This document shows positions 3,384-30,204 of a DNA stretch of 32,657 nucleotides, piece by piece. Position numbers and translations under genes: made by a program. Location: positions 1 to 32,657 of the IMG/VR virus record IMGVR_UViG_3300025120_000275. The stretch is one strand, 5' to 3'. Numbering within the stretch: the stretch's first letter is position 1; every line of letters begins with the position of its first letter. Source of the DNA: a virus. Below the pieces are notes generated by a model. It searched no databases. It saw only the letters and a program-made list of their open reading frames with translations, and was not told where the DNA came from.

Positions 3384-3391
3384 TATAAATA
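3384..3391 (-). promoter_or_regulatory. Putative late-gene motif TATTTATA before the sulfotransferase
   Basis: The sense strand reads GTATATTTATAACAAATAG, ending 12 bases before the ATG at 3371. It is one of six such motifs in gene-start gaps in this window. The role as a promoter is inferred from recurrence and position. Confidence 0.5.
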
Positions 3392-3410
3392 TACGTAATA
3401 ATTTTAAGTT

Positions 3411-5699
3411 TTACAAGTTATTTTTGTAATTTAGTTTTTCAGTTTTTGTTTTTTCACGTACAACACCTTTCCATGCCTTGGTTGCTGCTATATCTTTTCT
3501 AGTTCCTACTAACATTATATTATACTTACCATCTTCATTTGATGTAATTTTAATTTTAGTAGCACTAATATTTACTAAACCAAAAGCTTTTCCAAAATGT
3601 CCATCTGCACTAACCCATAATTGGCTATCTTTATTTAAATATCTATAATATTCAGGTAATATAATTTCTGCTTCATTATTAATTGTTATAGCAGAAAATC
3701 TATAAATATTATCTCCTGCAGTAGGTGATTCAACAAAACTATGATATAAATCATGTGTTTCAGATAATTCTGGGTTAGGGTGGTTTATTTTAAATGTACC
3801 AGAAGCTTTACTTAAAGACCCAAGTATAACAGCATTACAAGTATAAAATGTATTATTACATGGATCAATAGTCTTATTACAAGTTGCAGCTATAACAAAA
3901 TTACATGCCTTACTTGCTGGTACTATACTAATATTACAACCACCTAAAATTGCACTTGCCTTTGAGTTTCTTAAATTATTTCCTTGTCCTCCAATAATAT
4001 TTGATTGTACGGATCCTGATATTATGTTACTAGTGCCGCCAATAATAGTATTATGCTTTGTAACATCAGTAATTTTAGAATCACATATTTTGTTAAAAGC
4101 ACCTCCAACAATAGTATTACTTCCTTTCCAACATGCACTGCAATTGGGTTCAATTTTAATACAATTGTTTTGTCCACCTAATATAGAATTACGACCATTA
4201 AACGAACCTGAAATCGATCCTGAGTTTGCTATAATTTTATTATCTTTACCACCTGTAATAGTATTATATGCAAAGCATCCAATATGTCCTATTATATTAT
4301 TACCACTTCCACCTAAAATTGAATTATCAAACCCTCTCCCATATGTAGAAGTATTACAAATAAAGTTAGAAAAACCACCAACAATAGAGGAATTATGTGA
4401 AAATTCTTCAATTTTATTTAGTTGACCTGCACCTATAAAATTATTACCATCAATTGATGCAGATGCTCCTGTAATTAAATTTCTATCTCCTGCTACAATA
4501 GCACTATAATCAGAACCTAAATTTAAATGTCCTTGAATTTTATTTCCTTTACCTGCTCCAATAAATGATGCATGATCACAACTTCCACTAATAAAACTAC
4601 CAGAACCTGCTCCAATAAAACTACAGCTAGCTGATGATGAATTATTTACTCCTCCTACTATAGATGAAAAATTTGAACCAGAAATTGTATTTCTACAACC
4701 CGTACCTATAAAATTGTGATTCCCAGAACCAGTTATTATATTATTACATCCACTTCCTATCACACTATATGCAGTAGTAACTATATTAGCTCTACCCGCT
4801 AAAATTACAGAGCAACCTGATCCTGCAGGAGTTTCAACACAGTTATTGAATCCAGTTATAATAGCGCTGCAACTACCTTTAGTTATTTTATTAGATGCAC
4901 CACTCCCAATGACTGAACCATCAGCATCTGTTATACAATTAGAAGTACCATTACCAATAAAATTATAGGATTTACTAGATCCATCTATGCAGTTGCCACT
5001 ACCTCCAACAATTATACCGTATCCTCCTAGTCCAGATATATTTATAGTATTTGTAGTACCCCCTCCAATAAAACTATTACAAGCTTGAATATCATTTCTA
5101 CATCCACCTACAACAACATTACAACCAACACCAGCTGCATTATTACAAAATCCACCTCCTATAAAACTGTATGCAACTGAGGCTGTGTTTAATGCACCAC
5201 CTACTACAGTTGAATTTAGACCCGTTACTTGGTTACATAATCCACCTCCTATAAAACTACTTGCTCCTGATGCTGTGTTTAATGTACCACCTCCTATAAA
5301 ACTACAATTTGAATTGATTTTATTATTATTACCAGAGGCAATTGCAGAATTAGCACCAGTGTTATCAAATGTACCAAATCTATTTGGTATTATGTTTATT
5401 GTATTTGAACCTGTTTTGTAAACATGAAACCCCTCAGTGGATGCTGGGATATTTATACTTGAAGTTAATGCTTTATATACTTGACCTGTTGTATCATTAT
5501 AAGTTAATAGGTAATTTTGACCCGTAGTTAATAAAAGGGAAGGTGTTATACTTAAAGAACTTGTTAAGTTAACAGAACCAGATATTGATATTGCATAATC
5601 TTCAACACCAGTAAACGCATCAACTGATTGTGATACATGCCATGATTGGACTATTTCTCCTTGTTGTATTTGTGATTCGTAATTAAGTACTTTTGCCAT
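3411..5699 (-). CDS. Tail-fibre/adhesin protein: cysteine-rich YadA-like beta-roll repeats plus conserved C-terminal domain
   Basis: The 762-residue protein has three parts. Residues 1-117 form a beta-rich N-terminal region that probably anchors it to the tail. Residues about 118-630 hold roughly 29 degenerate units of 14-24 residues built on SFIGGGxxNxIxG, the pattern of left-handed beta-roll or trimeric-adhesin head repeats. Residues about 634-745 form a C-terminal domain (FKINHP at 636-641, HSFVESP at 653-659, GTRKD at 732-736). Similar C-terminal domains end many marine phage fibres and repeat adhesins and may act in folding or receptor contact. All 26 cysteines lie inside the repeats and none outside. 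The gene heads a short transcript after its own TATTTATA motif and is followed by the sulfotransferase. The receptor-binding role is inferred from architecture and place. Confidence 0.75.
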   Translation of the reverse strand: MAKVLNYESQIQQGEIVQSWHVSQSVDAFTGVEDYAISISGSVNLTSSLSITPSLLLTTGQNYLLTYNDTTGQVYKALTSSINIPASTEGFHVYKTGSNTINIIPNRFGTFDNTGANSAIASGNNNKINSNCSFIGGGTLNTASGASSFIGGGLCNQVTGLNSTVVGGALNTASVAYSFIGGGFCNNAAGVGCNVVVGGCRNDIQACNSFIGGGTTNTINISGLGGYGIIVGGSGNCIDGSSKSYNFIGNGTSNCITDADGSVIGSGASNKITKGSCSAIITGFNNCVETPAGSGCSVILAGRANIVTTAYSVIGSGCNNIITGSGNHNFIGTGCRNTISGSNFSSIVGGVNNSSSASCSFIGAGSGSFISGSCDHASFIGAGKGNKIQGHLNLGSDYSAIVAGDRNLITGASASIDGNNFIGAGQLNKIEEFSHNSSIVGGFSNFICNTSTYGRGFDNSILGGSGNNIIGHIGCFAYNTITGGKDNKIIANSGSISGSFNGRNSILGGQNNCIKIEPNCSACWKGSNTIVGGAFNKICDSKITDVTKHNTIIGGTSNIISGSVQSNIIGGQGNNLRNSKASAILGGCNISIVPASKACNFVIAATCNKTIDPCNNTFYTCNAVILGSLSKASGTFKINHPNPELSETHDLYHSFVESPTAGDNIYRFSAITINNEAEIILPEYYRYLNKDSQLWVSADGHFGKAFGLVNISATKIKITSNEDGKYNIMLVGTRKDIAATKAWKGVVREKTKTEKLNYKNNL
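3810..5348 (-). repeat. SFIGGG-type repeat-coding region within the fibre gene
   Basis: About 29 protein repeat units are encoded here. Most have diverged at DNA level, but 5143-5202 and 5233-5292 still match at 52 of 60 bases by direct comparison. They are offset by exactly 90 bases (30 residues, two units), suggesting a fairly recent in-frame duplication. Confidence 0.8.
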
Positions 5700-5715
5700 T
5701 TTTATACTTGTTTAT

Positions 5716-5723
5716 TATAAATA
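5716..5723 (-). promoter_or_regulatory. Putative late-gene motif TATTTATA before the fibre gene
   Basis: The sense strand reads AATATTTATAATAAACAAG, and the octamer ends 16 bases before the ATG at 5699. It matches the core ATATTTATAATAAA shared with the motifs at 23039, 26387 and 30197. Confidence 0.5.
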
Positions 5724-5727
5724 TTAA

Positions 5728-6810
5728 CTACCTATCTATATTTACTAGAATTGTAGTATCTGTTGTAGCAGATGTCTGTAAAGGTTTACCTAATTTTCCT
5801 ACTGCTAATAAATTAAAATTATTATCATATAATCCTATTGTAGTTATATAAGGTTCAAAATAAGACCCAGTTGCAAAATCTAAAGGTCTTCCATAATATG
5901 AAGAAGTTAATGAAGGTTGGGATTGAGTAAGATTAGTAGAAAATGTACTTCCTGTTACTATAGTAGGGTTGGTTGAATAATTAAATTCATCTTCATTTAA
6001 TGTTACCTGGTATTGAGTTTCAAATATTTTATATGAACTTGAAAATGACATTGTTACTTGATTTGAATTAATAAATGCATCAATAAAAAGTTCAGTTTCA
6101 ATAACGTTAGGACCATAAATGGCTTCTCCATAACGGGAAGACCCATAATTATTATTTGAGTCAACACCTACTAATTTAGCATCAAATAAAGTAACTATAC
6201 CATGTTCATAAATAATATTACCTGCCATAAATTGTACAGGTACATTATTTTGATTTTTAAAATTATAATATAATCTACCTTCTCCATCATCACCAATAGA
6301 ACCACTTTCATTATGTTCTATTAAAAAAGATTGAGGTTGAATGTAATCACCATATAACTTAGATGGAATTGATATTACTCCTATAGGTACAGAAGCTGTT
6401 GCTGCACTTGCAGTTGGAAAATCTCTATTAGCCCATAAAGTTGTTTGAGGATAATCATAAAAATTAGTATTTTGGATAGGACCTATACGTTCATTGCCCG
6501 CTTCATCTGATCCTAAAACAATGCTAGATGTTATCGCATCTCCTATGAACCCGCCACTTCCAGAAACATAATTTCCATAATAAAGTTGACGTATTGATTC
6601 ATATACTAAAACTGTAGGTATTTGAGAGCTATTAATAGTCCCAGTCATTTGACTACTTGATTCTAAATAATTCCCTGATCTTCCTAAATATCGTGCAATA
6701 CCAACATCAGAGCCTGTTAGGGATTCACCTCCTACAAAGTAAAAATTTTTGTTTACTTCAAATGGAGATACAATTAAGTCTTGCGAATTTAGTGTTTTGT
6801 AAGCGCTCAT
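5728..6810 (-). CDS. Virion appendage protein, paralogue of the gene at 6816-7877
   Basis: The 360-residue protein is rich in Ser, Thr, Gly and Asn with no signal peptide or membrane segment, as expected for a beta-structured virion protein. It shares both ends with its upstream neighbour. The N-terminus has TLNSQDLIVS (7-16) against RLDPEDFVVS. The C-terminus has EFNYSTNPTIVTGST, then TTIGLYDNNFNLLAVGKLGKPLQ, against EFNYSENPTFVSGST and TTIGMYNDSNELLAVAKLSKPLQ. The middle has diverged, though IGVISIPSKLYGDYIQPQSF still parallels YAISIERARYKQTLLPGSI. The conserved ends suggest a common attachment module with a variable centre. It sits five bases after the paralogue and before the fibre, so a tail-fibre or baseplate adaptor role is likely. 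No named family is recognised. Confidence 0.65.
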   Translation of the reverse strand: MSAYKTLNSQDLIVSPFEVNKNFYFVGGESLTGSDVGIARYLGRSGNYLESSSQMTGTINSSQIPTVLVYESIRQLYYGNYVSGSGGFIGDAITSSIVLGSDEAGNERIGPIQNTNFYDYPQTTLWANRDFPTASAATASVPIGVISIPSKLYGDYIQPQSFLIEHNESGSIGDDGEGRLYYNFKNQNNVPVQFMAGNIIYEHGIVTLFDAKLVGVDSNNNYGSSRYGEAIYGPNVIETELFIDAFINSNQVTMSFSSSYKIFETQYQVTLNEDEFNYSTNPTIVTGSTFSTNLTQSQPSLTSSYYGRPLDFATGSYFEPYITTIGLYDNNFNLLAVGKLGKPLQTSATTDTTILVNIDR

Positions 6811-6815
6811 TCATT

Positions 6816-7877: not shown

Positions 7878-7883
7878 ATCTTA

Positions 7884-8552: not shown

Positions 8553-8565
8553 TGTTGTATTTTTA

Positions 8566-8573
8566 TATAAATA
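8566..8573 (-). promoter_or_regulatory. Putative late-gene motif TATTTATA before the 222-residue gene
   Basis: The sense strand reads CAATATTTATATAAAAATAC, and the octamer ends 13 bases before the ATG at 8552. A second, imperfect copy (ATATTTATGACATATAAC) lies just upstream, within 8575-8597, in the gap after the giant gene. Confidence 0.45.
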
Positions 8574-8602
8574 TTGTTATATGTCATAAATATATGATTT
8601 TT

Positions 8603-11600
8603 TTAAGATTTTATTATTCCTTTAGAAATTAAATTATTTATTATCTCAGATGAGCTATAATTAATAAATTCTGATGGGAATGTTGGTAAAATTAACCCTG
8701 CAGATGAATATTCTGATGATGATAAATTAACATTTGTAATATCAGCATCATATGGATAATCTATATCTAAATATGCTACACTTGCATCATCAATAGGTCT
8801 TCTAACTAAAAAGAAATTTTTATTAATAGTACCATTAACTTCCTTATTTAGTTTAAGTTTAACTTTTCCTTGTCCTGTACTAGTAATATTTTCTTCTGGT
8901 GGGGTTACGGCTATAACGGTATAAGTATATGTTTCGTTATTTACAAATCTTATTTCATCATTAACTTTAATTTGGAGTGGTTTAGTAATCCTTGGGAATC
9001 TAGTATTTGTGGGTTCAAAACCACCTTCAAAGTATTGGGAACCACCTGCTTCATAAGGTAAATATCCTTGAGTAAATGCTGATCCATAAGCTTCATTAAA
9101 ATTAGGGGATGCCATTTCTATATGGTCTAATTCAGAACCTGAAAACTCCCAATATGGTGCTGATGCTGAGTTATCTCCATCAGCTGAATCGTATGCCCCT
9201 ACAACTGAAAAGTTTGTTGGTAAGTAATATTTTTCTCCTTGTCTAGATTCATACCCTTGAGGGTAAAAAACATTTAAGTAAGCTCTTCCACCACCTGTTG
9301 CCATATTACCAAGTAATTCAAAATGTACTTGATCACCAGCATTAAAATTACGACCTTCTGTGTTGTATGTTAATTTCCATTCGAAATATTCAACAGGTCC
9401 TCCATTTTCAACTCCACCTTTTGGTTTCCATTGTACCCCCCTATTTAATAATAAAGATTTTATAACTGGGTCCTCAAACAACATATTATATCTCTTACTA
9501 CTATCTTGTTGTACGGTAATACTTTCACCTCCAGTAGGTGTAATAAACTGTACCATTCTTCCTGATCTCCAACTACCTCCATTTTCTAATTGACCAAGTA
9601 CACTACCACAATATCTACTTTGACCTAAATAATAAACAGTTAATTCTAAATCTACTAAATTAAAATCAATAAAATTAGCAACCCCACCACCACCAGGGGC
9701 TAACTTACATCCAAGCATTATTCTCATTTCATCTGTACCTGATTCATATAAAAAGGATGTTACAAAAGTAGTTTCACCATATATTGTTTGTGGGTTTTTT
9801 AATGGTTGACCTGCAACATTATCAATACTACTTGTAAATCTAAAGATTCCATCAGAATACGGTGGGTATATTGGTGGTTGTGGATTAGCATCAGCATTAT
9901 TATATGAAGCAGTAATTATACTTGCAGTTGGTCTTAATCTATAAAATTCACTTGTTGCCGCAGAATTTCCTTTTATATGAGAATTACCAATTAAATTATT
10001 GATATCATCGGTAGATGTTACACCTCCACCCATAATTGACGTTGCATAAAATGTTTTTGAATTAGCACTTCCTACATTATCATAAACAGATATTCTTCCA
10101 GATCCTGATAATGGTATCTCATTTGTATACCCATTACTTGATGTTTGTGAAAAACAAATTGGCTCATATCTTTGTCCTACAGATTTTATATTTTGAGTAC
10201 CATTTAATTCTTGTAAAATGTTACTACCTGAGTTTATTTGTATAGAGACTTCACTTTCTGATGGGTAAAGTGTATTTATTATTTCATAACTTTGTCCACC
10301 TAATGAAGGAGGTAGTGCATTTTCTTGTTCATCAATTAAATAAGCTATATTTAGTTGGGTTGCATTATTATATAAAGGGTAAGGATTGATAATAGATTCA
10401 AAATAAGCAAAATAAGCTAATCTACTCTCAATATTAGGTAATTGACCATAAGTACCAATATCTCCATAAGTAAATACATTTATTTGACTACATATAGATC
10501 TAGAACCTGTGTATCTAGGAATTGTCCATGATTTTGACGAATAGTTAGAATCAGGGACTGATGCTCTAGTTGCTATACCCTGTAAAATTTGATTTTGATT
10601 AACTGGTATAATTGGGCCGGATTCATTAGAATAATCAATATCCATAATGTAAGAACTTTTTCTATTTTCATTATAGTTATTTAATAAAGGTTGACAATCT
10701 AAAGCTAAACCAAAAGGTAAAACCCCATTTTGGTAAAAAGTTGGAATAGAAAATTGTGTTATAGTTGGTACCCTATATACATTTGGAGATAAAACTGAGG
10801 CTGTTATTGGTGAATAAATACTTTGTCCCGGAGATATTCCAAAACTTGAAGATATTATTGTTACCCCAATATTAGATCCTTGTCTAATAACATTAAAAGC
10901 CATTCTTAATGAATCATTTATTTTCCAACCATCACTAGTTCTTGGGAAAAAACTTCCTGTAAAAGAATAATGCCCTACTGAAGCAGAATTTAATACTGAA
11001 GCTGATGGGACTAAACCACTATCATATTGAATTACTTCCCCAAAAGTTGAACGATCTGAAGGATTACCATAAAGAATTTGTGGGAATATACTAGCTGTTG
11101 GGTCAGCTATTGCTGATGCCGCTATTGTTACTGATTGGGTTATAGCTATAGATTGACTAGAATTTGGTATATAAGCAAAATCATAAGTATCTGTAAAATT
11201 AGAATCATAATTACTCATAGAATATTCTATATAATACATCCCACCAGATAAATTTGTAGTTGATGAAGTATTATTTGCAGCGTATGGTACATTATTTGTA
11301 AATGTTCCAACAGCATTAGATGCCGTTTTTTCAAAATCTACTATTGCACTAGGATATATATCGTATGTTACATTATTTGTTGATGTTATTATAGTATCAA
11401 CATTTACAATAGTATTTGTACCAGTATCATATGTAGAACCTGTATATTTTAAAAATGCCTGAGCATCTATAGATCCAGATTGTATAGCCCCTGCTGTACT
11501 AGGAGTAAAGAAATTTTGGAGATCAGATGCATTACCTAACCCTGTACTTTTAAATGTACCATTCGTATTTGTTATGGTAGAAGATCCAGATATCTGCAAA

Positions 11601-14600
11601 AGAGTCCAACGTGCCGTAACTTGTTCAACATCCCATTCATTCATATAAAAAAGAAAAGATGTATCTGATTCAACTGCTAATCTAGTTTTAAAAGGTTGTG
11701 TACTTAAAGGTTCCAAAATATTATTGGATGCTAGTCCACTATTCAAATCAAAAAAATAAGAGTCATACAGTCCAGATACACCAGTTGTTGGGTCTGTTAG
11801 TGAAATTGGAGTAGTATTTGCACGAGGAGATATATTATTTCTTGTAGCATTACCTGCACTTACAAATTCATTCCCACCCGCTTGATGTTGTACTGAAGCT
11901 GTTGCATTAATTGTTGTGCCAGTAGGTACATAGACATTTATATTATAAGAATAATATATTTCTAAACGGTTTAGAAATGCGTCTACATCTTGAAAAAGTC
12001 CACCAAAACTTACAAGTGATGATATATTTGTCTGCCAATTACTCCAATTAGTTGAAGAAAGTGTATATGCTCCATCCCCACCTAAATCATTATCCCCCCA
12101 ATATGATCTATTTCCATCAGGACTATCCCATACACTATTGTTTGATGCTGATAGACTACCAGAAAAGGGGGCAGTAAGAATAGATGTTGCTGTTGTAGGA
12201 GTTCCACTAAATTGGATTCTTCCAAAATTATAATCTAATGAAGAAGTACCTCCTTGAGCTATTTTTGGGTGACCTGATGGTAGGCCTAATAATAATGTGT
12301 TAGTTGTTAATGCGGGGAATGAACCTGAGTTACCTGGTATTAAATTATTTAGGTTATCATTAAAGGTAGGTTCTCCTACACCTTCAAATTGGGTAGAAGG
12401 AATAAATAAACCACTTATTACTGAATTTGCTGTTACATCTTCTCCAGTTAATTTACTTGTATAATTACCATTAGCTCTGTACAAAGCAGAAAACTTAGGT
12501 GAGTTAGAATCGTATCCTACCTGTGTACCAAATGGGTCTGAAGGGCCTATCCTACCTACTCCAGCAAATGAACCATCTGAAGGAAGAAATAATGGATAAT
12601 ATCGTACGTTAAAGGCATCGGGAATATAACCAGCCCAATTAATAGTTAATGAAGAATTAGCACTTAATACTGTACCTGCTGTTGAGGTAATAGAGACTTG
12701 TGCACCAAAGAAGTTACCGGGTGTGAAAATACTTGCAGTATTTGTTGGTGATAAACCTCCTGCTGTGATTGCAGCAGAAATTGTAGTGAACCCAGATCCT
12801 GTAGTTGTATTTAATGTTTCTGCGTTTAATGTTAATCCTGTACCATTTAAAGTAATAGCTTGGGATGTTATACCAGCATTATTTGGATTATATCCCTGTC
12901 CATTATGAATTAATCCTTGTACTGAGAATGACTCACCACCACCTCCACCACCTGTGGATAAATTAGAGGCACTATAATAAAAGGACATTGAAAAATTTAA
13001 AGGTATATTAGGTGTTCTATACAAATTATAAGATGAGTATCTCCATATATCTTCTGTAATAAAACGAGAAGCATCTTCAAATTCAAAGACAGACTTTCCT
13101 GAATCTACCCACTCTTTATATTCTTGTTGGTTTGCAGGAAGTAACATCCCAGCTGCTAAAAACTGGCCAGTACTGCCTTGCCCATTTGATTCTCCTAAAA
13201 GTAGTGGTTGGGCATTATTATAACTTCCAGTAGAAGACAAACCATCTGGTCCAAACCATGCATTTTTACCCCCAACTGAGTTTATAATGGGTTCGTTATA
13301 ATTAAGGGTTTTTGCTAATGCTGGGGTAGAATATACTGTGACAACCTCTTGTTGATTTAAATTTGTAGGATGTTTAAATACATTTTGTTGAGTTAAACTA
13401 GAATTATTTACCCTATCATCTGATGAAGTGTATGTTGTTGTTGCAACAAATGACCAATTTTCAGATCCCCCATTTTCTGAAGAGGTTATTGGGAAAAAAG
13501 CTTCTCCATCAGATCTTAATCTTATATTAAATTTCTCTGAAACTGTTGGTAAAAGTGCAGTAATAGGTTGTAAATTTACTGTATTAGCATCTACATTAAA
13601 CCTAAAAATATTGTTTTGGGAATATGAAGTATCTAAAAATGCTCCCGAATAATTATAAGTTATTACATTATTTCCTGTGGCATTTGATTTATAATTTATT
13701 TCTATAACCCCATTACCTGACCCCGCTTGTTGGGAGGCAGATGCAAATATACTTCTATAATCATTATCGAATGATGAAGAAGGTATTAAAAAACTTGTTA
13801 TTAAGTATGGATTTAACACGTTTGTGTCAGAAGTACCAGAACTATTTAACAAACTAGATGATATTAAAACCCCGGGTGTTGATGGGAAGGTATCCCTTTG
13901 ATAAAGAAGGTTATCACTAACGATAGATGGATTAGAAGTTTTATTATCCCCTTTTTCTAAAGCAATTCTTAATCTTACAGAATTAGCTTCAGGTATTACT
14001 CCTTCTACTATATAAGTTGGTATACCTTCCCCAAATGCTGGGGCCGAAGGCATATTAACTTGTATTTCAGTTCCAGCTTCAACATAATCTGTTACATCAT
14101 TACCATCAATATCTCTTCTAGATAGTTTTATAGAATAAACATAATTAAAATTTGGGTCTGCCCCCGTTAAAGATAAAATTTGGGGATTTGTTGGTTTTTT
14201 AGAAAAAATCCATGCAAATCCATCTAAGGGTTCATTATTAGGGTTATTAAAGGAATCTATATTAACTGTTCCTTGTTCATTTAAGTTTATTTCTCCATTA
14301 AAAAATAAAGGATTATATCTAGCCCCTTTATCAACTACATTTAAATAAGGTGCACAGCCAGGATTTAATGATTGTGTAGTGGCTACTATTTTAGACCCGC
14401 TAAATTCACCATCATAAAATTCATGTTGTGAGTTTACAACTTCAATTCCCCTACCTTGATATGAAGCACTTAAAAACTGCGAACTACTATAGTTAAAAAA
14501 GGTACTATTAATAACTGAATATTCATTAGGACTTCTTTCTGTTCCAATGGTATTATAACTTTGTGTTATATTAAATCTATTGTTAGGATATATAAGTTTC

Positions 14601-17600
14601 TCTAATATATTAGTATCAACTTTAAATTTTAATTCTCCTGTAACCCCAGTTTTTATATCTGATCCATTTACAACAATAATATCTCCAACATTAAATTCAG
14701 CTAATGAAGAAGATGTTCCAAAGACTGGTCCAACATTACCATTACTGTTAAAAGTAATACTATTAAAAGTTACCTCAACTGTTCCACTATCTGCTGTTAT
14801 AGCATATCCTCGTACATTATTAAAAGTTTCTGAAACAGGTATTGGAGAAATTGAGTTATAAAATAAATTACTTCCTATTTTTGTAGGATTTCTTATACTA
14901 GAAAGTGTTAATTGGTATGTTTGCATACCATTCCACTTATTTACTGAACCACCAGCACCTCCTGTAAATTTATATATGGCTGAACCGGATGTTGAGTATT
15001 GGGGGTAATCTAATGACCCCGAACTATAATCTTTTGGTAGATTAACTACTAAAGCTTCTAATGTTTCATTTGAAGATGAAACTTGAGCTGGTCTTTGTCT
15101 GTTTCTTTCTAATAAATGTTGTTTTACTACTATACCAGAAGCTAAACTTGTTCTAGCAGGAGTAAAATCTTTAATCATTTTAAATAATGAATTATCAAAG
15201 AATTTAATTAATCTAATAAAATCAACTACATCATAGCTGTTTATATATTTTTCAAAATAAGCATCTCTTAACCTATCTAAATTAGGATAACTACGAGCTG
15301 ATGATGAAATAAACCTTGGATCACCAATATAATCTCCAATATTAAAATATCCTAATTGTGCATTAATATCATCATTAATTTGATTAGCAGGTGAAAAAGC
15401 AACTTCTAAATAATTAACATTAGGTGTATAACTTTGGCTAGTAAATGAGTTTTGTTGTAATGATCTCATTGGGGATAATGCTGATGCTGTTATTATACCT
15501 TGTGTAGGTAAAATATCTCCAGTGCTATCCGGTGAATTTTCATTATAACCATATGGGGCCTCTGCTAAACTACTACTTTTTAAAATAACTTTTTCAGTTA
15601 TTCTATTTTTCATACCTACTGGTACTTGGTCTTGGAATATATCTTCTACATTTGTAACCCATTGACTATCTCTATTACTTGGAACGTCCAAATAAAACTC
15701 ACTATTAGTAGCAAAGGATTGTGTAATTTGTACAGCTGAGCCTGTTACCCTAGGATGAATGGATGTTCTACTAGCAGTATCTAATTGTGTACCCAAATCC
15801 GCTCTAAATAACAAACTATCTGGGGTATTATTTATGGTGTTTCCCTCAATTGAATATGGATTAACAACATAATCAAAAAAAACATCCTCATCTAATGATG
15901 CGGACCAATATCTTAATTCTTGAAATGAACCTGAGAATGGTTTATATATAGTTCCATCAGTAAATACATAATTTGAATCATCATTTAAGTTTGCTTTATC
16001 TGCAGTTTTATAATAAGAAGAATCGTATCCTGTAGTTGAATCTGAAGCACTGAATCCTATCTTACCATTAATTTGATTTGCTGTAAATAAAGATGCTGTA
16101 AGATTGATTAGCCCCCCACCATTATCTTCTAATGGCATATTAATTTGAGCTGACCACCAACCTCCATCAAAAAATGGTAAATACGCACTAGCTGATCTAC
16201 TGGGGTTATCATCTTGAGCTGGCACCCATTTTAATGTTCCATAATAATCATAAGGATTTATTGTAGAACCTGAATATGAACCTGATATTAATCCTGAACC
16301 TGTATATTCTAATACTAGATTTCCCCCTTCAGAACTTCCGAACCATAAAGACTGAGAATATCTTATATCGGAACTAGCTACATTTGATGAAGCAGTTGGT
16401 ATCCCCGCTGTTTTAAATCTTAATTGTATAGTTTGGGGGTTCTGGCCTGCTGTGTTAAATTTAGTATTAATATTTATCCCGAAAGATGAACTTACGTAAT
16501 TATTAGCACTAGGACCAGTATTAAATGCATAATTAAATACATTTTGTTTTAAATCATAATCTTGTGCTTCATTTCTATCCTTACCCCCAAATTCATTAAT
16601 TCTTAAAATTGTATCTGGGATTCCATAAGAAGTAATTAATGCTCTTATACCAGCTATTGTACCTTTAGTTTTAAGTAAATATGGTATATTATGGTATATT
16701 CGTTTATATAATCGTTTATTTACATCATTTAAGGGTACTATATCATTAGATGCTGATATTTTAGTATCTACGTACTCATACCCAGATGGTGTAGGTAAAC
16801 TACCAGTTATATTTGGGAAGGGGAATGCACTACCTGATGGAGTTAATCCTAAAAAAGCAGTAAATAAGTCATCAGTATTAAAATTATTTGAATATAATTT
16901 AACAGAAAAATCTTTAATTGCATCTGCTACTAAATCTTTAGATATACCATAATCTAAACGGTTATCAGCATCAAATTTATTCGTAATATCTTTAGTATAT
17001 ACCCAAACATTATCATAATATTGGCCAACCATATCAACAAATAATTCATATCTTTTATTTTCAGGGTCATCTCTTAAATATTCTGGTATTGAAAAATATA
17101 ACCAATCCCTATTATTTTCATCATAATTAGAAGCTGATAGAGCTTGTCCACCATAATTTAAACTATTAGGGTTTGCATTACCTAACCATGTTAATACTTC
17201 TGTTGAACCCGTTGAATATAATTGGAATGGGGGTTCTGTATTAGATTTAGGATAAGAATATAAAGATCCACTATTAAAATATAAGAAATACTCATACCCA
17301 TCAAAGTTTTTAATTATATCATTAATTTGATTTTTTAAGGTTGCTGTACTAGCACTAAAAAATTGTTGGTTAACAGTTCCACTTGATACTTGCCCATAAA
17401 AATTTTCTAAATCATTACTTGCTGATTGTATTAGTCCTACTTTATAATAAAAGTTTTCTAAACGTGTTTTAGCAGAACTAAAATTAATAAAATTTCCATA
17501 ATTTTCATAATCAATATTTATGTTTATTTCTTTTTCATTTAATAAACTTTGAATTTGATTAATTGAACTTGTAATATCTGAATTAAGAAGAGTGCTATAA

Positions 17601-18352
17601 GAAAAATCTTCTGAAGGCGTACCAGTTTGTTGTGATATATTTAAACTATAATTTGGACCTGATAAATATGTAAAATTTTGTTCAATTATAGGATCAAAAG
17701 GAAATACTACTTCATATGCTTGAGGAGAAGATATTTCGGTTACAACCCATAATTCATTTTTTATATTAAATTTAGAAGGTAAAGGTTCATATAATTTAAC
17801 TAAAATTGTTGGGTCTACATTATCATCAATATCTAATTTTATATTATTAGCAATTACTGTTCTATTATTACCAAAATTTAGATAAAAATCAACAAAATAT
17901 TCTGAATTTTCTCTAGATTGTATAAATGAGTTTGATGATGAAATTATTAATTCATTTGCAATTTCATTACTATCTAACCTAATTTCTGTTCTATCAGATG
18001 ATATTTCTGAAATAAAATATTTTTCGGTATTATTTGATGAAAGTTGTTTTCTATAAAATTGATATAAAATCTGATATGTACCTATATCAAACCCATTAGT
18101 TTCTAAATTTAGTTCTGGGTCTAGTAAAACATCCCCTTCCCTTACATTATATTGTACTAAAGGAACTGTTGTTGAAGGGTAAACTAAAACATTATTTGGG
18201 TTATATACATAATATTCTATGTAATCAGTTGAAGCAGTAAAAGCAGTATCAAGATTAGTTTGTACAATTAATCTTTCATCTGAATTTTCATATGTTTGAA
18301 ATTCAAATGTTTGTGAATCTAATATTGGTGTTACCGTTGTTTTTAATTTCAT
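8603..18352 (-). CDS. Giant (3249-residue) baseplate/tail structural protein
   Basis: This intact frame of 9.75 kb is the largest gene here. Residues 1-230 look like two beta domains. A helical region around 250-350 follows. Residues about 415-595 contain DWLYFSIPEYLRDDP, YDNVWVYTKDITNKFD and LPYLLKTKGTIAGIRALITSYGIP-type segments. The KGTxxGIRALxxxYGIP part recalls the C-terminal motif of P2 gpI/T4 gp7-class wedge proteins (resemblance only). Residues about 610-900 resemble a LamG/concanavalin-like sandwich (FSGSFQELRYWSASLDED). About 1035-1085 is a conserved helical stretch (DVVDFIRLIKFFDNSLFKMI, then ARTSLASG). The rest is long, Ser/Thr/Asn-rich beta sequence with a six-Gly run near 1804 and a distinct C-terminal domain (about 3130-3249; FFLVRRPIDDASVAYLDIDY). 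Its position after gp25, gp6 and the DNRLRE-like protein is where T4 has gp7-gp12, so it may replace several of them. Confidence 0.75.
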   Translation of the reverse strand: MKLKTTVTPILDSQTFEFQTYENSDERLIVQTNLDTAFTASTDYIEYYVYNPNNVLVYPSTTVPLVQYNVREGDVLLDPELNLETNGFDIGTYQILYQFYRKQLSSNNTEKYFISEISSDRTEIRLDSNEIANELIISSSNSFIQSRENSEYFVDFYLNFGNNRTVIANNIKLDIDDNVDPTILVKLYEPLPSKFNIKNELWVVTEISSPQAYEVVFPFDPIIEQNFTYLSGPNYSLNISQQTGTPSEDFSYSTLLNSDITSSINQIQSLLNEKEININIDYENYGNFINFSSAKTRLENFYYKVGLIQSASNDLENFYGQVSSGTVNQQFFSASTATLKNQINDIIKNFDGYEYFLYFNSGSLYSYPKSNTEPPFQLYSTGSTEVLTWLGNANPNSLNYGGQALSASNYDENNRDWLYFSIPEYLRDDPENKRYELFVDMVGQYYDNVWVYTKDITNKFDADNRLDYGISKDLVADAIKDFSVKLYSNNFNTDDLFTAFLGLTPSGSAFPFPNITGSLPTPSGYEYVDTKISASNDIVPLNDVNKRLYKRIYHNIPYLLKTKGTIAGIRALITSYGIPDTILRINEFGGKDRNEAQDYDLKQNVFNYAFNTGPSANNYVSSSFGININTKFNTAGQNPQTIQLRFKTAGIPTASSNVASSDIRYSQSLWFGSSEGGNLVLEYTGSGLISGSYSGSTINPYDYYGTLKWVPAQDDNPSRSASAYLPFFDGGWWSAQINMPLEDNGGGLINLTASLFTANQINGKIGFSASDSTTGYDSSYYKTADKANLNDDSNYVFTDGTIYKPFSGSFQELRYWSASLDEDVFFDYVVNPYSIEGNTINNTPDSLLFRADLGTQLDTASRTSIHPRVTGSAVQITQSFATNSEFYLDVPSNRDSQWVTNVEDIFQDQVPVGMKNRITEKVILKSSSLAEAPYGYNENSPDSTGDILPTQGIITASALSPMRSLQQNSFTSQSYTPNVNYLEVAFSPANQINDDINAQLGYFNIGDYIGDPRFISSSARSYPNLDRLRDAYFEKYINSYDVVDFIRLIKFFDNSLFKMIKDFTPARTSLASGIVVKQHLLERNRQRPAQVSSSNETLEALVVNLPKDYSSGSLDYPQYSTSGSAIYKFTGGAGGSVNKWNGMQTYQLTLSSIRNPTKIGSNLFYNSISPIPVSETFNNVRGYAITADSGTVEVTFNSITFNSNGNVGPVFGTSSSLAEFNVGDIIVVNGSDIKTGVTGELKFKVDTNILEKLIYPNNRFNITQSYNTIGTERSPNEYSVINSTFFNYSSSQFLSASYQGRGIEVVNSQHEFYDGEFSGSKIVATTQSLNPGCAPYLNVVDKGARYNPLFFNGEINLNEQGTVNIDSFNNPNNEPLDGFAWIFSKKPTNPQILSLTGADPNFNYVYSIKLSRRDIDGNDVTDYVEAGTEIQVNMPSAPAFGEGIPTYIVEGVIPEANSVRLRIALEKGDNKTSNPSIVSDNLLYQRDTFPSTPGVLISSSLLNSSGTSDTNVLNPYLITSFLIPSSSFDNDYRSIFASASQQAGSGNGVIEINYKSNATGNNVITYNYSGAFLDTSYSQNNIFRFNVDANTVNLQPITALLPTVSEKFNIRLRSDGEAFFPITSSENGGSENWSFVATTTYTSSDDRVNNSSLTQQNVFKHPTNLNQQEVVTVYSTPALAKTLNYNEPIINSVGGKNAWFGPDGLSSTGSYNNAQPLLLGESNGQGSTGQFLAAGMLLPANQQEYKEWVDSGKSVFEFEDASRFITEDIWRYSSYNLYRTPNIPLNFSMSFYYSASNLSTGGGGGGESFSVQGLIHNGQGYNPNNAGITSQAITLNGTGLTLNAETLNTTTGSGFTTISAAITAGGLSPTNTASIFTPGNFFGAQVSITSTAGTVLSANSSLTINWAGYIPDAFNVRYYPLFLPSDGSFAGVGRIGPSDPFGTQVGYDSNSPKFSALYRANGNYTSKLTGEDVTANSVISGLFIPSTQFEGVGEPTFNDNLNNLIPGNSGSFPALTTNTLLLGLPSGHPKIAQGGTSSLDYNFGRIQFSGTPTTATSILTAPFSGSLSASNNSVWDSPDGNRSYWGDNDLGGDGAYTLSSTNWSNWQTNISSLVSFGGLFQDVDAFLNRLEIYYSYNINVYVPTGTTINATASVQHQAGGNEFVSAGNATRNNISPRANTTPISLTDPTTGVSGLYDSYFFDLNSGLASNNILEPLSTQPFKTRLAVESDTSFLFYMNEWDVEQVTARWTLLQISGSSTITNTNGTFKSTGLGNASDLQNFFTPSTAGAIQSGSIDAQAFLKYTGSTYDTGTNTIVNVDTIITSTNNVTYDIYPSAIVDFEKTASNAVGTFTNNVPYAANNTSSTTNLSGGMYYIEYSMSNYDSNFTDTYDFAYIPNSSQSIAITQSVTIAASAIADPTASIFPQILYGNPSDRSTFGEVIQYDSGLVPSASVLNSASVGHYSFTGSFFPRTSDGWKINDSLRMAFNVIRQGSNIGVTIISSSFGISPGQSIYSPITASVLSPNVYRVPTITQFSIPTFYQNGVLPFGLALDCQPLLNNYNENRKSSYIMDIDYSNESGPIIPVNQNQILQGIATRASVPDSNYSSKSWTIPRYTGSRSICSQINVFTYGDIGTYGQLPNIESRLAYFAYFESIINPYPLYNNATQLNIAYLIDEQENALPPSLGGQSYEIINTLYPSESEVSIQINSGSNILQELNGTQNIKSVGQRYEPICFSQTSSNGYTNEIPLSGSGRISVYDNVGSANSKTFYATSIMGGGVTSTDDINNLIGNSHIKGNSAATSEFYRLRPTASIITASYNNADANPQPPIYPPYSDGIFRFTSSIDNVAGQPLKNPQTIYGETTFVTSFLYESGTDEMRIMLGCKLAPGGGGVANFIDFNLVDLELTVYYLGQSRYCGSVLGQLENGGSWRSGRMVQFITPTGGESITVQQDSSKRYNMLFEDPVIKSLLLNRGVQWKPKGGVENGGPVEYFEWKLTYNTEGRNFNAGDQVHFELLGNMATGGGRAYLNVFYPQGYESRQGEKYYLPTNFSVVGAYDSADGDNSASAPYWEFSGSELDHIEMASPNFNEAYGSAFTQGYLPYEAGGSQYFEGGFEPTNTRFPRITKPLQIKVNDEIRFVNNETYTYTVIAVTPPEENITSTGQGKVKLKLNKEVNGTINKNFFLVRRPIDDASVAYLDIDYPYDADITNVNLSSSEYSSAGLILPTFPSEFINYSSSEIINNLISKGIIKS

Positions 18353-18362
18353 ATTTTATTAT

Positions 18363-20335: not shown

Positions 20336-20346
20336 AATTTTTTATT

Positions 20347-22646: not shown

Positions 22647-22648
22647 AT

Positions 22649-23023: not shown

Positions 23024-23038
23024 GTTATATTGATTTAT

Positions 23039-23046
23039 TATAAATA
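23039..23046 (-). promoter_or_regulatory. Putative late-gene motif TATTTATA before the gp25-gp6 operon
   Basis: The sense strand reads TAATATTTATAATAAATCA, and the octamer ends 15 bases before the ATG at 23023. It matches the 14-base core ATATTTATAATAAA exactly. Confidence 0.5.
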
Positions 23047-23051
23047 TTAAA

Positions 23052-24758: not shown

Positions 24759-24759
24759 T

Positions 24760-26374: not shown

Positions 26375-26386
26375 AATGTGTTTTAT

Positions 26387-26394
26387 TATAAATA
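26387..26394 (-). promoter_or_regulatory. Putative late-gene motif TATTTATA before the hub operon
   Basis: The sense strand reads CCATATTTATAATAAAACA, and the octamer ends 12 bases before the ATG at 26374. It lies in the 36-base gap after the late sigma factor gene and matches the 14-base core exactly. Confidence 0.5.
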
Positions 26395-26410
26395 TGGATG
26401 TGGGAAAGAT

Positions 26411-27121
26411 TTAGAATCTAGCGTAACCATTTTCTAAATAAAAGATATATTGTGATTTAAATATCACATGAAGTTTATCTGCTATTTTGGTAATTTTTGG
26501 GGTTTTTACATCAACCATTTCCCTAATATAAATGTAAAGTGCTTTTTTATTAAATACTTCTAATGCCTCTCTTTTTCTAAATAATTCTAAAATTGCATCT
26601 GCTATTTGAGCATCATTCTTTTTTGGAAACAATTCAAATATATGTTCTGATGTATAATCAACAAATAAATCAACATATTTATCTAAATCACTTTTTATTT
26701 TTTCATCCCCCTGAGAATAAGTATGGGTAGAATTTTCATTAGTTAGTACCTCAACTCCAACTTTTTTAATTTTTTTATTATAATTTTTAGTATTATATAA
26801 TATTAACCAACGCTTAACAATAGTACCAAAATAAGAATATGCTTTTGCACCTCTACCTGGGTCAAATAGGTGTATTTTTGATAATAAAAATGTTATTATT
26901 TCATGTTGAAGGTGTTCTAAATTTTCAACTTCAGTATGATAAAATTTAAATGTGTGAATTATATTTTGGGTTAGTTTAAAAAACGCGAAATGGATTTCAC
27001 GTTCATATATTTTTGATCTAACCTCAGAATCTTTAGTATTATTATATAATACAATAGCATCTTCAGTATCTTGAGTAAAGTAGTTTTTACTCTTTTTTCT
27101 TCTTTTTCGTATTTGAGTCAT
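26411..27121 (-). CDS. Late-transcription sigma factor, gp55-like
   Basis: The 236-residue protein resembles T4 gp55 (185 residues) and related phage sigma factors that direct host RNA polymerase to late promoters. A basic N-terminus (IRKRRKKSKNYF) precedes a sigma region-2-like helical core: ENLEHLQHEIITFLLSKIHL, then FDPGRGAKAYSYFGTIVKRW at 86-105. The FDPxRG-K-xSYF signature is shared by phage and bacterial group members. The C-terminal part (TPKITKIADKLHVIF) may be a small helix-turn-helix. It overlaps the upstream membrane-protein gene by one base. It likely controls the structural genes on either side, which carry the TATTTATA motif. The assignment is confident; the promoter link is inference. 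Confidence 0.82.
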   Translation of the reverse strand: MTQIRKRRKKSKNYFTQDTEDAIVLYNNTKDSEVRSKIYEREIHFAFFKLTQNIIHTFKFYHTEVENLEHLQHEIITFLLSKIHLFDPGRGAKAYSYFGTIVKRWLILYNTKNYNKKIKKVGVEVLTNENSTHTYSQGDEKIKSDLDKYVDLFVDYTSEHIFELFPKKNDAQIADAILELFRKREALEVFNKKALYIYIREMVDVKTPKITKIADKLHVIFKSQYIFYLENGYARF

Positions 27122-27399
27122 TATTGGTTTTGTCTAAATTGAGATAAATCATTTTGGATTATTTTAATTTCATTAAAAAACCAACCTATTTCATCATCAC
27201 TTTTAAATACTTCCTTTTCATCTATTTTTTTTAAACGTTCACTAGAAAATTTGATATGTTCTTCTATTTTATCAATAAATTCTTGTTGGGAAAGTAATAC
27301 ATCTTCAGCATATTCATTTTTACGTAAAAGGTTAAAAGTCGTATATCCGAAGATAACGACTAATAAAATTAATATTGTAATAATGATTTCTAATATCAT
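27121..27399 (-). CDS. Small single-pass membrane protein with cytoplasmic coiled coil
   Basis: The 92-residue protein begins with a strong membrane helix (LEIIITILILLVVIFGYTTF, 3-22) with no lipobox or cleavage site. A charged helical tail follows (LSQQEFIDKIEEHIKFSSER). The topology resembles small phage inner-membrane proteins, including i-spanin-like proteins, but no partner o-spanin gene is next to it. Its start overlaps the HD-hydrolase stop by four bases and its stop overlaps the sigma-factor start by one base. It is a conserved-looking phage membrane protein of unknown role. Confidence 0.65.
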   Translation of the reverse strand: MILEIIITILILLVVIFGYTTFNLLRKNEYAEDVLLSQQEFIDKIEEHIKFSSERLKKIDEKEVFKSDDEIGWFFNEIKIIQNDLSQFRQNQ

Positions 27400-28169
27400 A
27401 AACTGTCTAACATATTCTTTAATCCGGGACTTGAAATTGTATTAAGTGCTTTAGATTTGGATGATTTTATGTTTCCCTTTAAGGTATAATTCTTTTTTGA
27501 CGCATCCACGCTATTTTGAGTAAACTTTGGTAACCATTCTATCTCAAATTCAATACGTGCGGCCATCATATCAGCTTGATGCAAAATAAATGGCAATGAT
27601 GTGCGAGGTTTTTGTTCGGGCATGAATGCTTTTAAATATTTTTCATTTGCAGAATCATATAAACCATCGTGTGTTTGAATAGCTATCATTTCGTTAAATG
27701 AATATGTAATATCATGCTGTTGAAGTAAAAATAACCCTCTATCTGGGACAGAAGCAAATGCTAATTTTTTATTAAACATATATTCTTCACCTAATTTATC
27801 ACGTCTCCAATTGTCAGTTTGGGGTATGTATGCTTCATGTTCTTTATCTCCCATTTTACCTAAGTCATGGTTAATAGCGGAAAATACTAATTCTTCAATA
27901 GTAAACGTAGAAGTGTCCATCCCAAATTGTTCCCAAACACCATACATTTTTAAAGAGGCATCAACAACTCTATTAACATGGTCAACATAACCACCTGGAA
28001 ATGCTGAATGGTATTCTTTTTTATGTGATGCAGGCATCAACATAATACGTTCTTCGTACCGTTTATAAAAATTAACTAAACATTCCCCTCTATTACCTGG
28101 GATATGTTCTTCAATATTATTTAGGAATATTTCCCAATTTGCCTGAATTTGTTCTGCTGATAATTTCAT
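27396..28169 (-). CDS. HD-domain metal-dependent phosphohydrolase
   Basis: The 257-residue protein carries the HD-superfamily metal ligands: H64 in GGYVDHVNRV, H101-D102 in AINHDLGKMGD, H152 or H167 as extra ligands (QQHDI, QTHDG), and D200 in HQADMMA. This is the H...HD...D pattern of phosphohydrolases acting on nucleotides, cyclic nucleotides or phosphodiesters. It has no membrane segment. It could help turn over host nucleotides or signalling molecules during infection, but the substrate is not visible. It overlaps the following membrane-protein gene by four bases and lies five bases from the zinc-type protein. The class is well supported. Confidence 0.82.
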   Translation of the reverse strand: MKLSAEQIQANWEIFLNNIEEHIPGNRGECLVNFYKRYEERIMLMPASHKKEYHSAFPGGYVDHVNRVVDASLKMYGVWEQFGMDTSTFTIEELVFSAINHDLGKMGDKEHEAYIPQTDNWRRDKLGEEYMFNKKLAFASVPDRGLFLLQQHDITYSFNEMIAIQTHDGLYDSANEKYLKAFMPEQKPRTSLPFILHQADMMAARIEFEIEWLPKFTQNSVDASKKNYTLKGNIKSSKSKALNTISSPGLKNMLDSL

Positions 28170-28174
28170 AACTT

Positions 28175-28543
28175 TTATTTTAAATTTTTTACTAACTCGT
28201 CTGCTGTTTCTTTATCCTCAATAAATTTAGCCCATTTTCCTTCGGGGCATGATGATATTAAAGATCTTGTTTTACTAGCCATTTGACAGCCACATAAACT
28301 ACAACAGGGTTGTGTGCCTGGGACTGTGCAACTTTTACCTATAGTATCTAAATGTTGACATGTTTTACAAATAGACCATCTAATAGCAGCAATTTCTTCA
28401 ACATCTTCTCTTTTAAAAACTCTGTTTTTGATGCCCTCATAAATTGCTGGCATGTTACCAAATGCTTTTATTAATTGGTTTATTCTTCTCAATTTAGCGA
28501 ATTGCACTATTTTGTTCCTGAGCGGAACGAGGTTCTCTTTCAA
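28175..28543 (-). CDS. Cysteine-rich, probably zinc-binding phage protein (start uncertain)
   Basis: From the ATG at 28543 the protein has 122 residues, but this start overlaps the upstream gene by 50 bases. A TTG at 28492, one base after that gene's stop, and an ATG at 28453 are alternatives. The C-terminal part holds eight cysteines (59, 62, 72, 80, 81, 84, 86 and 99 in the long form) in the order CxxC, C, CCxxCxC, C, ending CPEGKW. The CxxCGC ... CPxGKW ending recurs in small phage proteins and looks like one or two zinc ribbons. A nucleic-acid or protein contact role is plausible. Gene reality is likely; the start is not settled. Confidence 0.6.
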   Translation of the reverse strand: MKENLVPLRNKIVQFAKLRRINQLIKAFGNMPAIYEGIKNRVFKREDVEEIAAIRWSICKTCQHLDTIGKSCTVPGTQPCCSLCGCQMASKTRSLISSCPEGKWAKFIEDKETADELVKNLK

Positions 28544-28697
28544 TCATAGATCTAATATCATTACATAACCCTTGGGCTTTTATAATGTTAGCTTTATAAG
28601 CTTCAATAGGTTCCTGAGTGTTTACTATTCGTTGTAAATTAATTAGAGTATGTTCTAATGTTTCTAATTTTCTGTAGGTTAATTCTCTATTTATCAT
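28494..28697 (-). CDS. Small helical protein
   Basis: The 67-residue protein is nearly all helix-forming (LETLEHTLINLQRIVNTQEP, then ANIIKAQGLCNDIRSM) with a charged C-terminus. It starts right after the 133-base gap containing a TATATATAAAA stretch and a perfect dyad, so it may be first in the transcript leading to the zinc-type protein, the HD hydrolase and the sigma factor. It has no known family. Supporting evidence is limited to frame length, position and absence of a better frame. Confidence 0.5.
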   Translation of the reverse strand: MINRELTYRKLETLEHTLINLQRIVNTQEPIEAYKANIIKAQGLCNDIRSMIEREPRSAQEQNSAIR

Positions 28698-28830
28698 AAC
28701 TTTTATATATATTAACAGGGTATCCCTGAATTACTTTTATGCCTTTATTTCCAACCCCTTCTTATTCCATTTTTCCAACAAACCTGTAATACCAATTTAC
28801 GAGGGATTTTTTGTATATCCTAATTATCTT
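28698..28830 (-). other. Intergenic gap with dyad and promoter-like stretch; no gene
   Basis: This 133-base gap has no credible open frame on either strand; the longest pieces are under 25 codons. It contains the dyad at 28716-28728 and, on the sense strand, TATATATAAAA (28711-28701) ending four bases from the ATG. It also holds a 16-base stretch (28807-28822) identical to part of the T5orf172 gene at 30625-30640. The latter may be a decayed gene fragment or chance. Confidence 0.4.
28716..28728. repeat. Perfect inverted repeat CAGGG-TAT-CCCTG
   Basis: Five-base arms around a three-base centre give a GC-rich dyad in very AT-rich surroundings. It sits just upstream of the promoter-like TATATATAAAA before the 67-residue gene. 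It could be an operator or a short RNA hairpin; it has no adjacent U-run as a terminator would. Confidence 0.45.
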
Positions 28831-29256
28831 TTAAATTTTTTTAACTACTTCTCTTATTGTATGGAGGTGTGCACATTTTTCATATTCTTCATATTGTTCA
28901 AAAAATTGAATTGAATTACTTAATACTTTAGAAAATATTTTATTATCAAAATTTATAATAGCATTTACATCATCATGATTATCTAAACTGATGTCTTTTA
29001 TATAGGACCATGCTCTATTATATACAGTAAATTCAGATGCTTCTTTTGTAGACTCTACATTATAGTTAGGTTGTTCTTTTTTAAGGAACTTTTCTAATTT
29101 TTGATGAAAAATCTGATGATTTTGGATTAATTTAACAAACATTCCTATTTTAGCAAAGGGACCATTCATAAAATCCTTAATTTCAGATTTAGTTTTATCA
29201 TCCGAAATTTCTTTCCCATCAACAAATAATTGAAATATTTTATCTTTATCTATCAT
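28831..29256 (-). CDS. Hypothetical helical protein
   Basis: The 141-residue acidic/basic helical protein includes DKIFQLFVDGKEIS (4-17), HQIFHQKLEKFLKKEQ (48-63) and an acidic C-terminal helix (NSIQFFEQYEEYEKC). It lacks a signal peptide, membrane segment or recognisable catalytic motif. It lies six bases after the 306-residue virion-like gene and is the last gene before the 133-base gap. No family is recognised. A minor virion or regulatory protein are both possible. Confidence 0.5.
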   Translation of the reverse strand: MIDKDKIFQLFVDGKEISDDKTKSEIKDFMNGPFAKIGMFVKLIQNHQIFHQKLEKFLKKEQPNYNVESTKEASEFTVYNRAWSYIKDISLDNHDDVNAIINFDNKIFSKVLSNSIQFFEQYEEYEKCAHLHTIREVVKKI

Positions 29257-29262
29257 TTTTCA

Positions 29263-30183
29263 TTAATTAGGAAATGATTTCAGGATTGAAGTTGTTATAT
29301 AAGTTAAATCAGTTGTTTTACCATCTCCTGTATTTATAACAGTAGCACCATTTAAATCTACTGCTGTACCAGCCATTGACAGTCTATCTGCAGTTAATAC
29401 ATCAGAATTAATTGTTAATGTAATTGCTCCTGTCCCATCAAAAATATTTCCTGCGGTAGATGTTAAAGTTTGTCCTGGGGAGTAAGTAGCTGCAGATGCT
29501 GACGTTAAAAATGTAATTGTATCTAATCCATCTCCAGCACCATTGGTTCTAGTATCGGTTTTAACATTTTGGAACCCTGTTCCACCTGTTCCTTGAGCTG
29601 CTGTAAATGTGACATTAGTACTATTTACAGCACCCGTCATACCATCTAAGGTATTAGTAGTAATTGCATCAACAAGAGAAATATCTGCTGCAATTACATT
29701 TGCGGCAACTGTACCTGAATTATTAGGAGATGCTGGTAGGTCAGATGCAAATCTCATTTGTAACCCTGTTGATTCATAGTATGTATATCTTATAGTTGAA
29801 GCACTACCACCACCTAACTGATCATTATTAACATCAATAAATGGGATACCACTACCAGTATCTACAGTAACTGCTTCTTTTAAAGTAATTAATATTTGAG
29901 TTTCACCACCACTTATAGTTTTTATTGATACATTAAGAGGATTAAAAACAGCAGATAAGAGTTCCTGTTTAGCATATCTTTTCCCTGCTTGATGCAATTG
30001 ATTATTTAATTGCGCAGAATTATTCTGTAGATATTGTTGAGATACTTGACTTGAAACAAAATTTTCAAATAAAAGTTGTTCTTTATAAAATTTACTTTTA
30101 AGTTCATTTATAGAAAGATTCTGATTATCTAATCTTTTTGTAAAAGAAAACCAAGATCCTGGTGATTGTTGGAATATTGCCAT
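29263..30183 (-). CDS. Virion-like beta-rich structural protein
   Basis: The 306-residue protein opens with a helical N-terminus (about 24-80: INELKSKFYKEQLLFENF), followed by a Gly/Thr/Ala/Asn-rich beta region. That region contains repeated Ig-like strand patterns such as GAGDGLDTITFLTSA and GTGAITLTINSDVLTADRL, and ends TSILKSFPN. The composition matches other structural proteins in this window. It heads a transcript with a TATTTATA motif 13 bases before its start, as the tail genes do, supporting late expression. It could be a head or tail decoration protein; no specific family is recognised. Confidence 0.55.
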   Translation of the reverse strand: MAIFQQSPGSWFSFTKRLDNQNLSINELKSKFYKEQLLFENFVSSQVSQQYLQNNSAQLNNQLHQAGKRYAKQELLSAVFNPLNVSIKTISGGETQILITLKEAVTVDTGSGIPFIDVNNDQLGGGSASTIRYTYYESTGLQMRFASDLPASPNNSGTVAANVIAADISLVDAITTNTLDGMTGAVNSTNVTFTAAQGTGGTGFQNVKTDTRTNGAGDGLDTITFLTSASAATYSPGQTLTSTAGNIFDGTGAITLTINSDVLTADRLSMAGTAVDLNGATVINTGDGKTTDLTYITTSILKSFPN

Positions 30184-30196
30184 TGTTATATTTTAT

Positions 30197-30204
30197 TATA
30201 AATA
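30197..30204 (-). promoter_or_regulatory. Putative late-gene motif TATTTATA before the 306-residue virion gene
   Basis: The sense strand reads GTATATATTTATAATAAAATA, with the octamer ending 13 bases before the ATG at 30183. It carries the exact 14-base core ATATTTATAATAAA. Confidence 0.5.

Follow-up and report, generated by a model that had tools for sequence, protein, structure and literature searches.

The late genes of bacteriophage T4 are served by a gp55-dependent promoter, TATAAATA (PMC2988020, PMC7892883), which has no -35 element and is followed by an AT-rich segment (PMC2988020). The cyanophages S-PM2 and Syn9 use a late promoter of the same gp55-dependent class, NATAAATA (PMC2984593), and Aeromonas phage Aeh1, with a/gC for TA at -13/-12, provides a precedent within the T4 family for a shifted late-box consensus (PMC2988020). 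Here we describe an element of the same architecture, the octamer TATTTATA (in its extended form ATATTTATAAYAAA), in IMGVR_UViG_3300025120_000275, a whole IMG/VR virus record and possibly a fragment, whose 32,657 bases (G+C ~30%; hereafter the window) carry nearly every gene on the minus strand. The closest isolates, as judged by the baseplate wedge protein gp6, are Flavobacterium phage vB_FspM_immuto (hereafter immuto; 45% identity), which contains T4-type gp20, gp23, and prohead protease genes, and Microcystis phage Mel-JY01 (42%). We consider it probable, at roughly four chances in five, that TATTTATA is the -10-like element of a single-element, T4-style late promoter with an altered box, read by a gp55-like sigma factor encoded in the same stretch. 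A literature search, which missed most subscription journals, found no published description of this motif or of Flavobacterium phage late promoters.

An earlier note on this DNA had proposed a candidate phage late promoter from six octamers in minus-strand gene-start gaps, 12-16 nucleotides (nt) before the start codon. All six lie exactly where it placed them and at the distances it gave (Table 1); the longer context that it described as usual is perfect (ATATTTATAATAAA) at four of the sites, the remaining two reading ATATTTATAACAAA and ATATTTATATAAAA. Other copies were said to be few and to lie inside genes; the location is correct, but the count is not so low, at eight (two sense, six antisense). 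On both strands together the window contains 14 copies of TATTTATA against 14.8 +/- 3.8 expected from composition, which is chance level, so the frequency of the octamer by itself proves nothing and simple counting is uninformative. Within the ~1.1 kb of gap sequence, sense copies number six against 0.45 expected, a count reached in 0 of 2000 dinucleotide shuffles, and antisense copies are absent; the enrichment beyond composition that a motif search in the gaps of this phage and its relatives was to look for is therefore present. TATTTATA is also the most frequent 8-mer in the 40-nt regions upstream of genes in the window (6 vs 0.60 expected). When a weight matrix built from 56 non-redundant sites of relatives, with the window left out, was scored at all window positions on both strands, the six gap sites ranked 1-6 and no in-gene octamer reached the threshold.

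Conservation was assessed in 80 IMG/VR loci with a gp6 relative, drawn from 533 stretches that encode one. Across 81 loci, a box within 40 nt of a start lies in gene direction 198 times and against it 17 times. Orthologous first genes retain the box—at 67/68 starts for the 118-amino acid (aa) gene, 74/74 for the 124-aa gene (at protein identities down to ~40%), and 7/7 for the 222-aa gene—and it is absent at the starts of co-directional neighbors, namely gp6 (0/80), gp25 (0/75), the 422-aa gene p422 (0/69), and the sigma gene (0/65). Internal genes of units are thus not conserved equally with first genes in this respect, and this distribution indicates that the box marks the heads of transcription units. 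In the part of the immuto genome that matches the fiber-like gene of the window, a tail-spike gene has a box as well (95182). The logo of the relatives' sites reads ATATTTATAA[T/C]AAA, and positions further upstream show no strong conservation. A 40-kb stretch, LR756508, showed no pattern of boxes.

In the complete immuto genome, the box precedes terminase, gp20, sheath, tube, tape measure, and other structural genes, and is found in 16 of the 38 gaps of structural blocks vs 7 of the 79 gaps elsewhere (Fisher p = 9e-5, with block boundaries drawn from annotation). The partition is reversed for a second motif, TAT[ACT]TTTA followed by a purine-rich, GTA-like sequence (1/38 late-block gaps, 22/79 other gaps). 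Among 23 of these early boxes (TAT[AC]TTTAG), 21 are preceded by GTTG or TTTG at a distance of exactly 24 nt, and they are predicted to be Bacteroidota -33/-7 promoters of the form GTTG-N20-TATATTTAG. Sigma-A promoters of Bacteroidota carry TTG at -33, so that two elements at fixed spacing are involved; this type heads the early genes of immuto and one early-type site in the window, from which genes run towards the sigma gene (Table 1). It could be argued that the late box is itself a variant of the host promoter, not read by a phage sigma: it is AT-rich and -7-like, the host -7 consensus is TAnnTTTG (PMC9723704), and the site at 3384 has TTG ~23 nt upstream of TATATTTA. However, TATTTATA breaks the TTTG part of this consensus, and the partner at exactly 24 nt is missing from late boxes, of which 4/23 in immuto (at scattered offsets) and 1/66 in the relatives have GTTG or TTTG 22-26 nt upstream. 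Additionally, the logo is flat upstream, the late box having no conserved -33/-35 element; the early motif and the late motif are found in separate blocks of the genome; and the same box occurs in the cyanophage Mel-JY01, whose host sigma-A differs. We therefore regard the host-promoter explanation as unlikely. A scan for E. coli-type promoters returned fewer sites than in shuffles.

In the early promoters of immuto, the -33 GTTG is often surrounded by an inverted repeat or has one directly downstream of it (NC_055915, ~60988-75055; e.g., GTTGCCTCTTCGGAGGCAA), and a similar repeat, GGGAAGCTTGGCTTCCC, is present at the early promoter of the window (~32354-32371), an arrangement that looks like a fusion between a hairpin or terminator of one gene and the promoter of the following one. 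From 67665 to 73856 of the immuto genome, many small genes are arrayed, each under a near-identical promoter cassette (...TATATTTAGGTATCAATAATTAAAAC), with about one gene per promoter.

The earlier note had considered the motif opposite in strand sense to the T4 late promoter, a description that does not hold. That TATTTATA and TATAAATA are reverse complements follows solely from the palindromic nature of TATNNATA outside the two bases at its center; read in one sense, the boxes agree at six of eight positions (T-13, A-12, T-11, A-8, T-7, A-6) and differ only at the central two. The orientation with the gene, together with the strand-specific AAYAAA tail downstream, indicates that the motif is read in gene direction, and it is better described as a putative T4-like TAT-AA-ATA box with TT for AA at -10/-9. 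A true TATAAATA promoter facing the other way and giving antisense or divergent transcripts would account for the reverse complementarity, but no gene at the six sites points in that direction, the conserved tail lies on the gene side, and the 198:17 bias and the sense of the box in Mel-JY01 run counter to it; this is the least probable of the explanations considered. Neither the window nor immuto shows enrichment of TATAAATA, in its T4 sense, ahead of gene starts. Likeness to the T4 late promoter extends to an 8-bp, AT-only box without a -35 element, an AT-rich segment directly downstream (here AAYAAA), a position at the head of structural gene units, and an encoded gp55-family sigma. The differences are the central TT, whose two deviations (-10, -9) exceed the single-deviation limit for the T4 box, the extended tail, and the distance of 12-16 nt to ATG, as compared with mostly 24-28 nt in T4. 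The S-PM2 and Syn9 box differs in keeping the central AA, and that of Aeh1 in being changed at its 5' end, whereas the present box is changed at its center.

Comparison with Mel-JY01 bears on whether the element acts in transcription or on the message. Shine-Dalgarno-like cores occur at 1/26 starts in the window, 9/233 in immuto, 40/89 in Mel-JY01, and 20/27 in T4; their near-absence in the window and immuto would suit a Bacteroidota host for the window phage. Flavobacterium mRNAs are without Shine-Dalgarno sequences (PMC6847099). Given this, together with the short distance to ATG and the A-rich tail directly before it, the box could be taken for a Kozak-like translation-initiation signal of such mRNAs. 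However, it is absent at nearly all downstream genes of boxed units, and its spacing to ATG varies from 5 to 25 nt among relatives (mode 13-15 nt in those without Shine-Dalgarno sites). In Mel-JY01, whose genome does use these sites and whose sigma homolog is 36% identical, TATTTAT[AG] precedes 7 of 26 late-block starts by 23-36 nt, against 0.5 expected; among the seven are terminase, the gene after it (in the gp20 position), and tail tube, and in most of them a Shine-Dalgarno sequence lies between box and ATG. The T4 box, mostly 24-28 nt before late genes, has the same layout. A box upstream of a separate Shine-Dalgarno site argues for a promoter and makes a translation signal highly improbable, though the comparison rests on one cyanophage genome, as searches for relatives like Mel-JY01 and LR756508 gave 0 and 2 loci, respectively. 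The other alternative role suggested in the earlier note, RNA processing, here taken as a processing or stability element within leaders of longer transcripts, appears only marginally less improbable. The box is AU-rich and, lying in gaps between co-directional genes, would be contained in read-through transcripts, and some mapped 5' ends of T4 late messages could be processing products (PMC2988020); against this, its core and tail are sequence-strict with nothing conserved around them, it is concentrated in late blocks and shared with Mel-JY01, and a gp55-like gene lies alongside. An Rfam search returned no match.

This gp55-like gene, which the earlier note had placed within the region, encodes a strongly conserved protein whose conserved C-terminus ends in FYLENGYARF, and homologs were found in at least 600 stretches. 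Pfam Sigma70_r2 matches 25 of 32 homologs and phrog_234 (late sigma) 24 of 32, all weakly; T4 gp55 itself scores only 14.5 bits against Sigma70_r2, as compared with 13.3 bits for the window sigma. In immuto, PHROG 234 picks out just the sigma gene (E 0.008). With hhalign, the profile of 76 homologs aligned colinearly with that of the gp55 family across 151 columns (E=5e-4), and three unrelated families from the same loci, used as controls, gave E values of 0.4-0.76. Significance required the gp55 family profile and distant sigma relatives; against T4 gp55 alone, the alignment is not convincing (E=0.035). On this evidence, the protein is a remote gp55 homolog, longer than that of T4 by an added C-terminal helical part. 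In T4 gp55, Y97 stacks on A-12, N13 and H95 read A-9, and T99 reads A-8 (PMC7892883). The Tyr97 equivalent is invariant in 76/76 homologs; at other positions of the promoter pocket F86 is kept, L54 is replaced by I, R57 by T, and H95 by Y or F, the last also being found at position 95 in the cyanophage sequences compared. An A at -12 and a T at -9 in the new box are in step with Y97 and H95.

Several observations weigh against the late-promoter interpretation. Within the pocket, T99 is replaced by G, Q, or S though an A persists at -8, and nothing aligns with N13, so the correspondence between pocket and bases is partial. No Pfam or PHROG sigma match exceeds threshold, leaving the sigma assignment remote, and searches of PDB sequences with the sigma or its profile gave no match. 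The AlphaFold model is helical (pLDDT 81, pTM 0.47), and its best Foldseek neighbors in the PDB are mostly bacterial sigma factors, a repeated but weak signal (all E >0.1) that serves as support only. In immuto, the seven boxed gaps noted above fall outside late blocks, and the gap immediately preceding the major capsid gene lacks the box. In T4, transcription of late genes further depends on gp33 and the clamp gp45; neither a gp45-type nor a DnaN sliding clamp was detected in the whole genomes of immuto (NC_055915) and Mel-JY01 (PP395634) using PF09116, PF02916, and PF00712, where T4 as a control was positive for PF09116 and PF02916 and a divergent clamp may have escaped detection. For none of these phages did the literature searched provide a transcript 5' end or a time course. 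The box thus falls outside strict T4 membership on sequence, and the system outside the full T4 system on the clamp; yet it most likely works like a T4 late promoter.

In the proposed mechanism, host RNA polymerase with its own sigma would transcribe early genes from -33/-7 promoters, and read-through from the early-type promoter of the window would supply the gp55-like sigma. This sigma would bind the host polymerase core and melt the AT-rich box, with transcription starting ~6 nt past its last base, so that structural units would be transcribed from very near their start codons. Late leaders should then be ~6-11 nt long in the window phage, in keeping with the tiny leaders that the earlier note had foreseen. 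The absence of Shine-Dalgarno usage in these phages may explain why such leaders are tolerated and why the box lies unusually near the gene start. Leaders in F. psychrophilum have a median length of 24 nt, and 5.5% of its messages have no leader (PMC9723704). In one clade (loci L053, L054, L058, L081, and L085-L088), the box lies 5 nt from the ATG of the 124-aa gene, a start codon fixed by homolog alignment. If the distance from box to initiation is one helical turn, as it is in T4 (PMC2988020), +1 would fall on the A of ATG, and late leaders of this clade should be 0 nt. Distances of 6-9 nt are nearly missing among relatives, which is suggestive only, as the sites share descent.

Table 1. Candidate promoter elements and the putative late sigma gene in the window
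Feature	Coordinates	Strand	Remarks
Late box ATATTTATAATAAA	30192..30205	-	Octamer 30197, 13 nt before ATG of 306-aa gene (29263-30183); matrix score 20.4, the maximum
Late box ATATTTATAATAAA	26382..26395	-	Octamer 26387, 12 nt before ATG of 118-aa gene
Late box ATATTTATAATAAA	23034..23047	-	Octamer 23039, 15 nt before ATG of 124-aa gene heading gp25/gp6 baseplate unit
Late box, variant ATATTTATATAAAA	8561..8574	-	Octamer 8566, 13 nt before ATG of 222-aa gene; also kept in immuto (90661)
Late box ATATTTATAATAAA	5711..5724	-	Octamer 5716, 16 nt before ATG of 762-aa fiber-like gene
Late box ATATTTATAACAAA	3379..3392	-	Octamer 3384, 12 nt before ATG of sulfotransferase gene
Possible second box, G-ending variant TATTTATG	8585..8592	-	Just upstream of 8566 box; variant also used in Mel-JY01
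gp55-like late sigma factor (putative), 236 aa	26411..27121	-	Proposed reader of the box; weak Sigma70_r2/phrog_234, profile match E=5e-4
Early-type (host-like) promoter, predicted	32332..32365	-	CTTG with TATATTCACG beginning exactly 24 nt downstream of it; same spacing as in early promoters of immuto

The G-ending variant and the 8566 box possibly form a tandem late promoter. Products of the window include a DNA primase and homologs of the baseplate wedge protein gp6 and of gp25, and many of its proteins have no families. Between the baseplate genes and the fiber region lies an open reading frame of 3249 aa (8603-18352, minus strand) without a PHROG match, whose immuto counterpart by place is 1265 aa long. 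The 762-aa protein (3411-5699, minus strand) contains repeated SFIGGG..N-like units and a weak Pfam LbR_Ice_bind match, and is perhaps a beta-solenoid fiber. The sulfotransferase gene (2541-3371, minus strand; Pfam Sulfotransfer_3, E 1e-13) has its own late box; no homolog was found among open reading frames of the gp6-anchored loci.

These data suggest a likely late-gene switch for a large and very common, barely studied group of T4-like phages that probably infect Flavobacterium-type bacteria. Phages that do without Shine-Dalgarno sites would thereby come under the gp55 paradigm. More tentatively, and with the odds somewhat against it in this full form, the group may constitute a large uncultivated T4-like lineage with a gp55-family sigma of altered specificity (TT for AA at -10/-9), no gp45-type clamp, and one clade in which leaderless late mRNAs start at the A of ATG. 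Should the gp45 clamp really be missing, the question arises of how late transcription is activated. The natural pair TATAAATA and TATTTATA, together with the sigma substitutions at H95, T99, and N13, offers a means of examining -10 box recognition by a minimal sigma. Additionally, the box allows late transcription units to be called in contigs where most genes are without known relatives.

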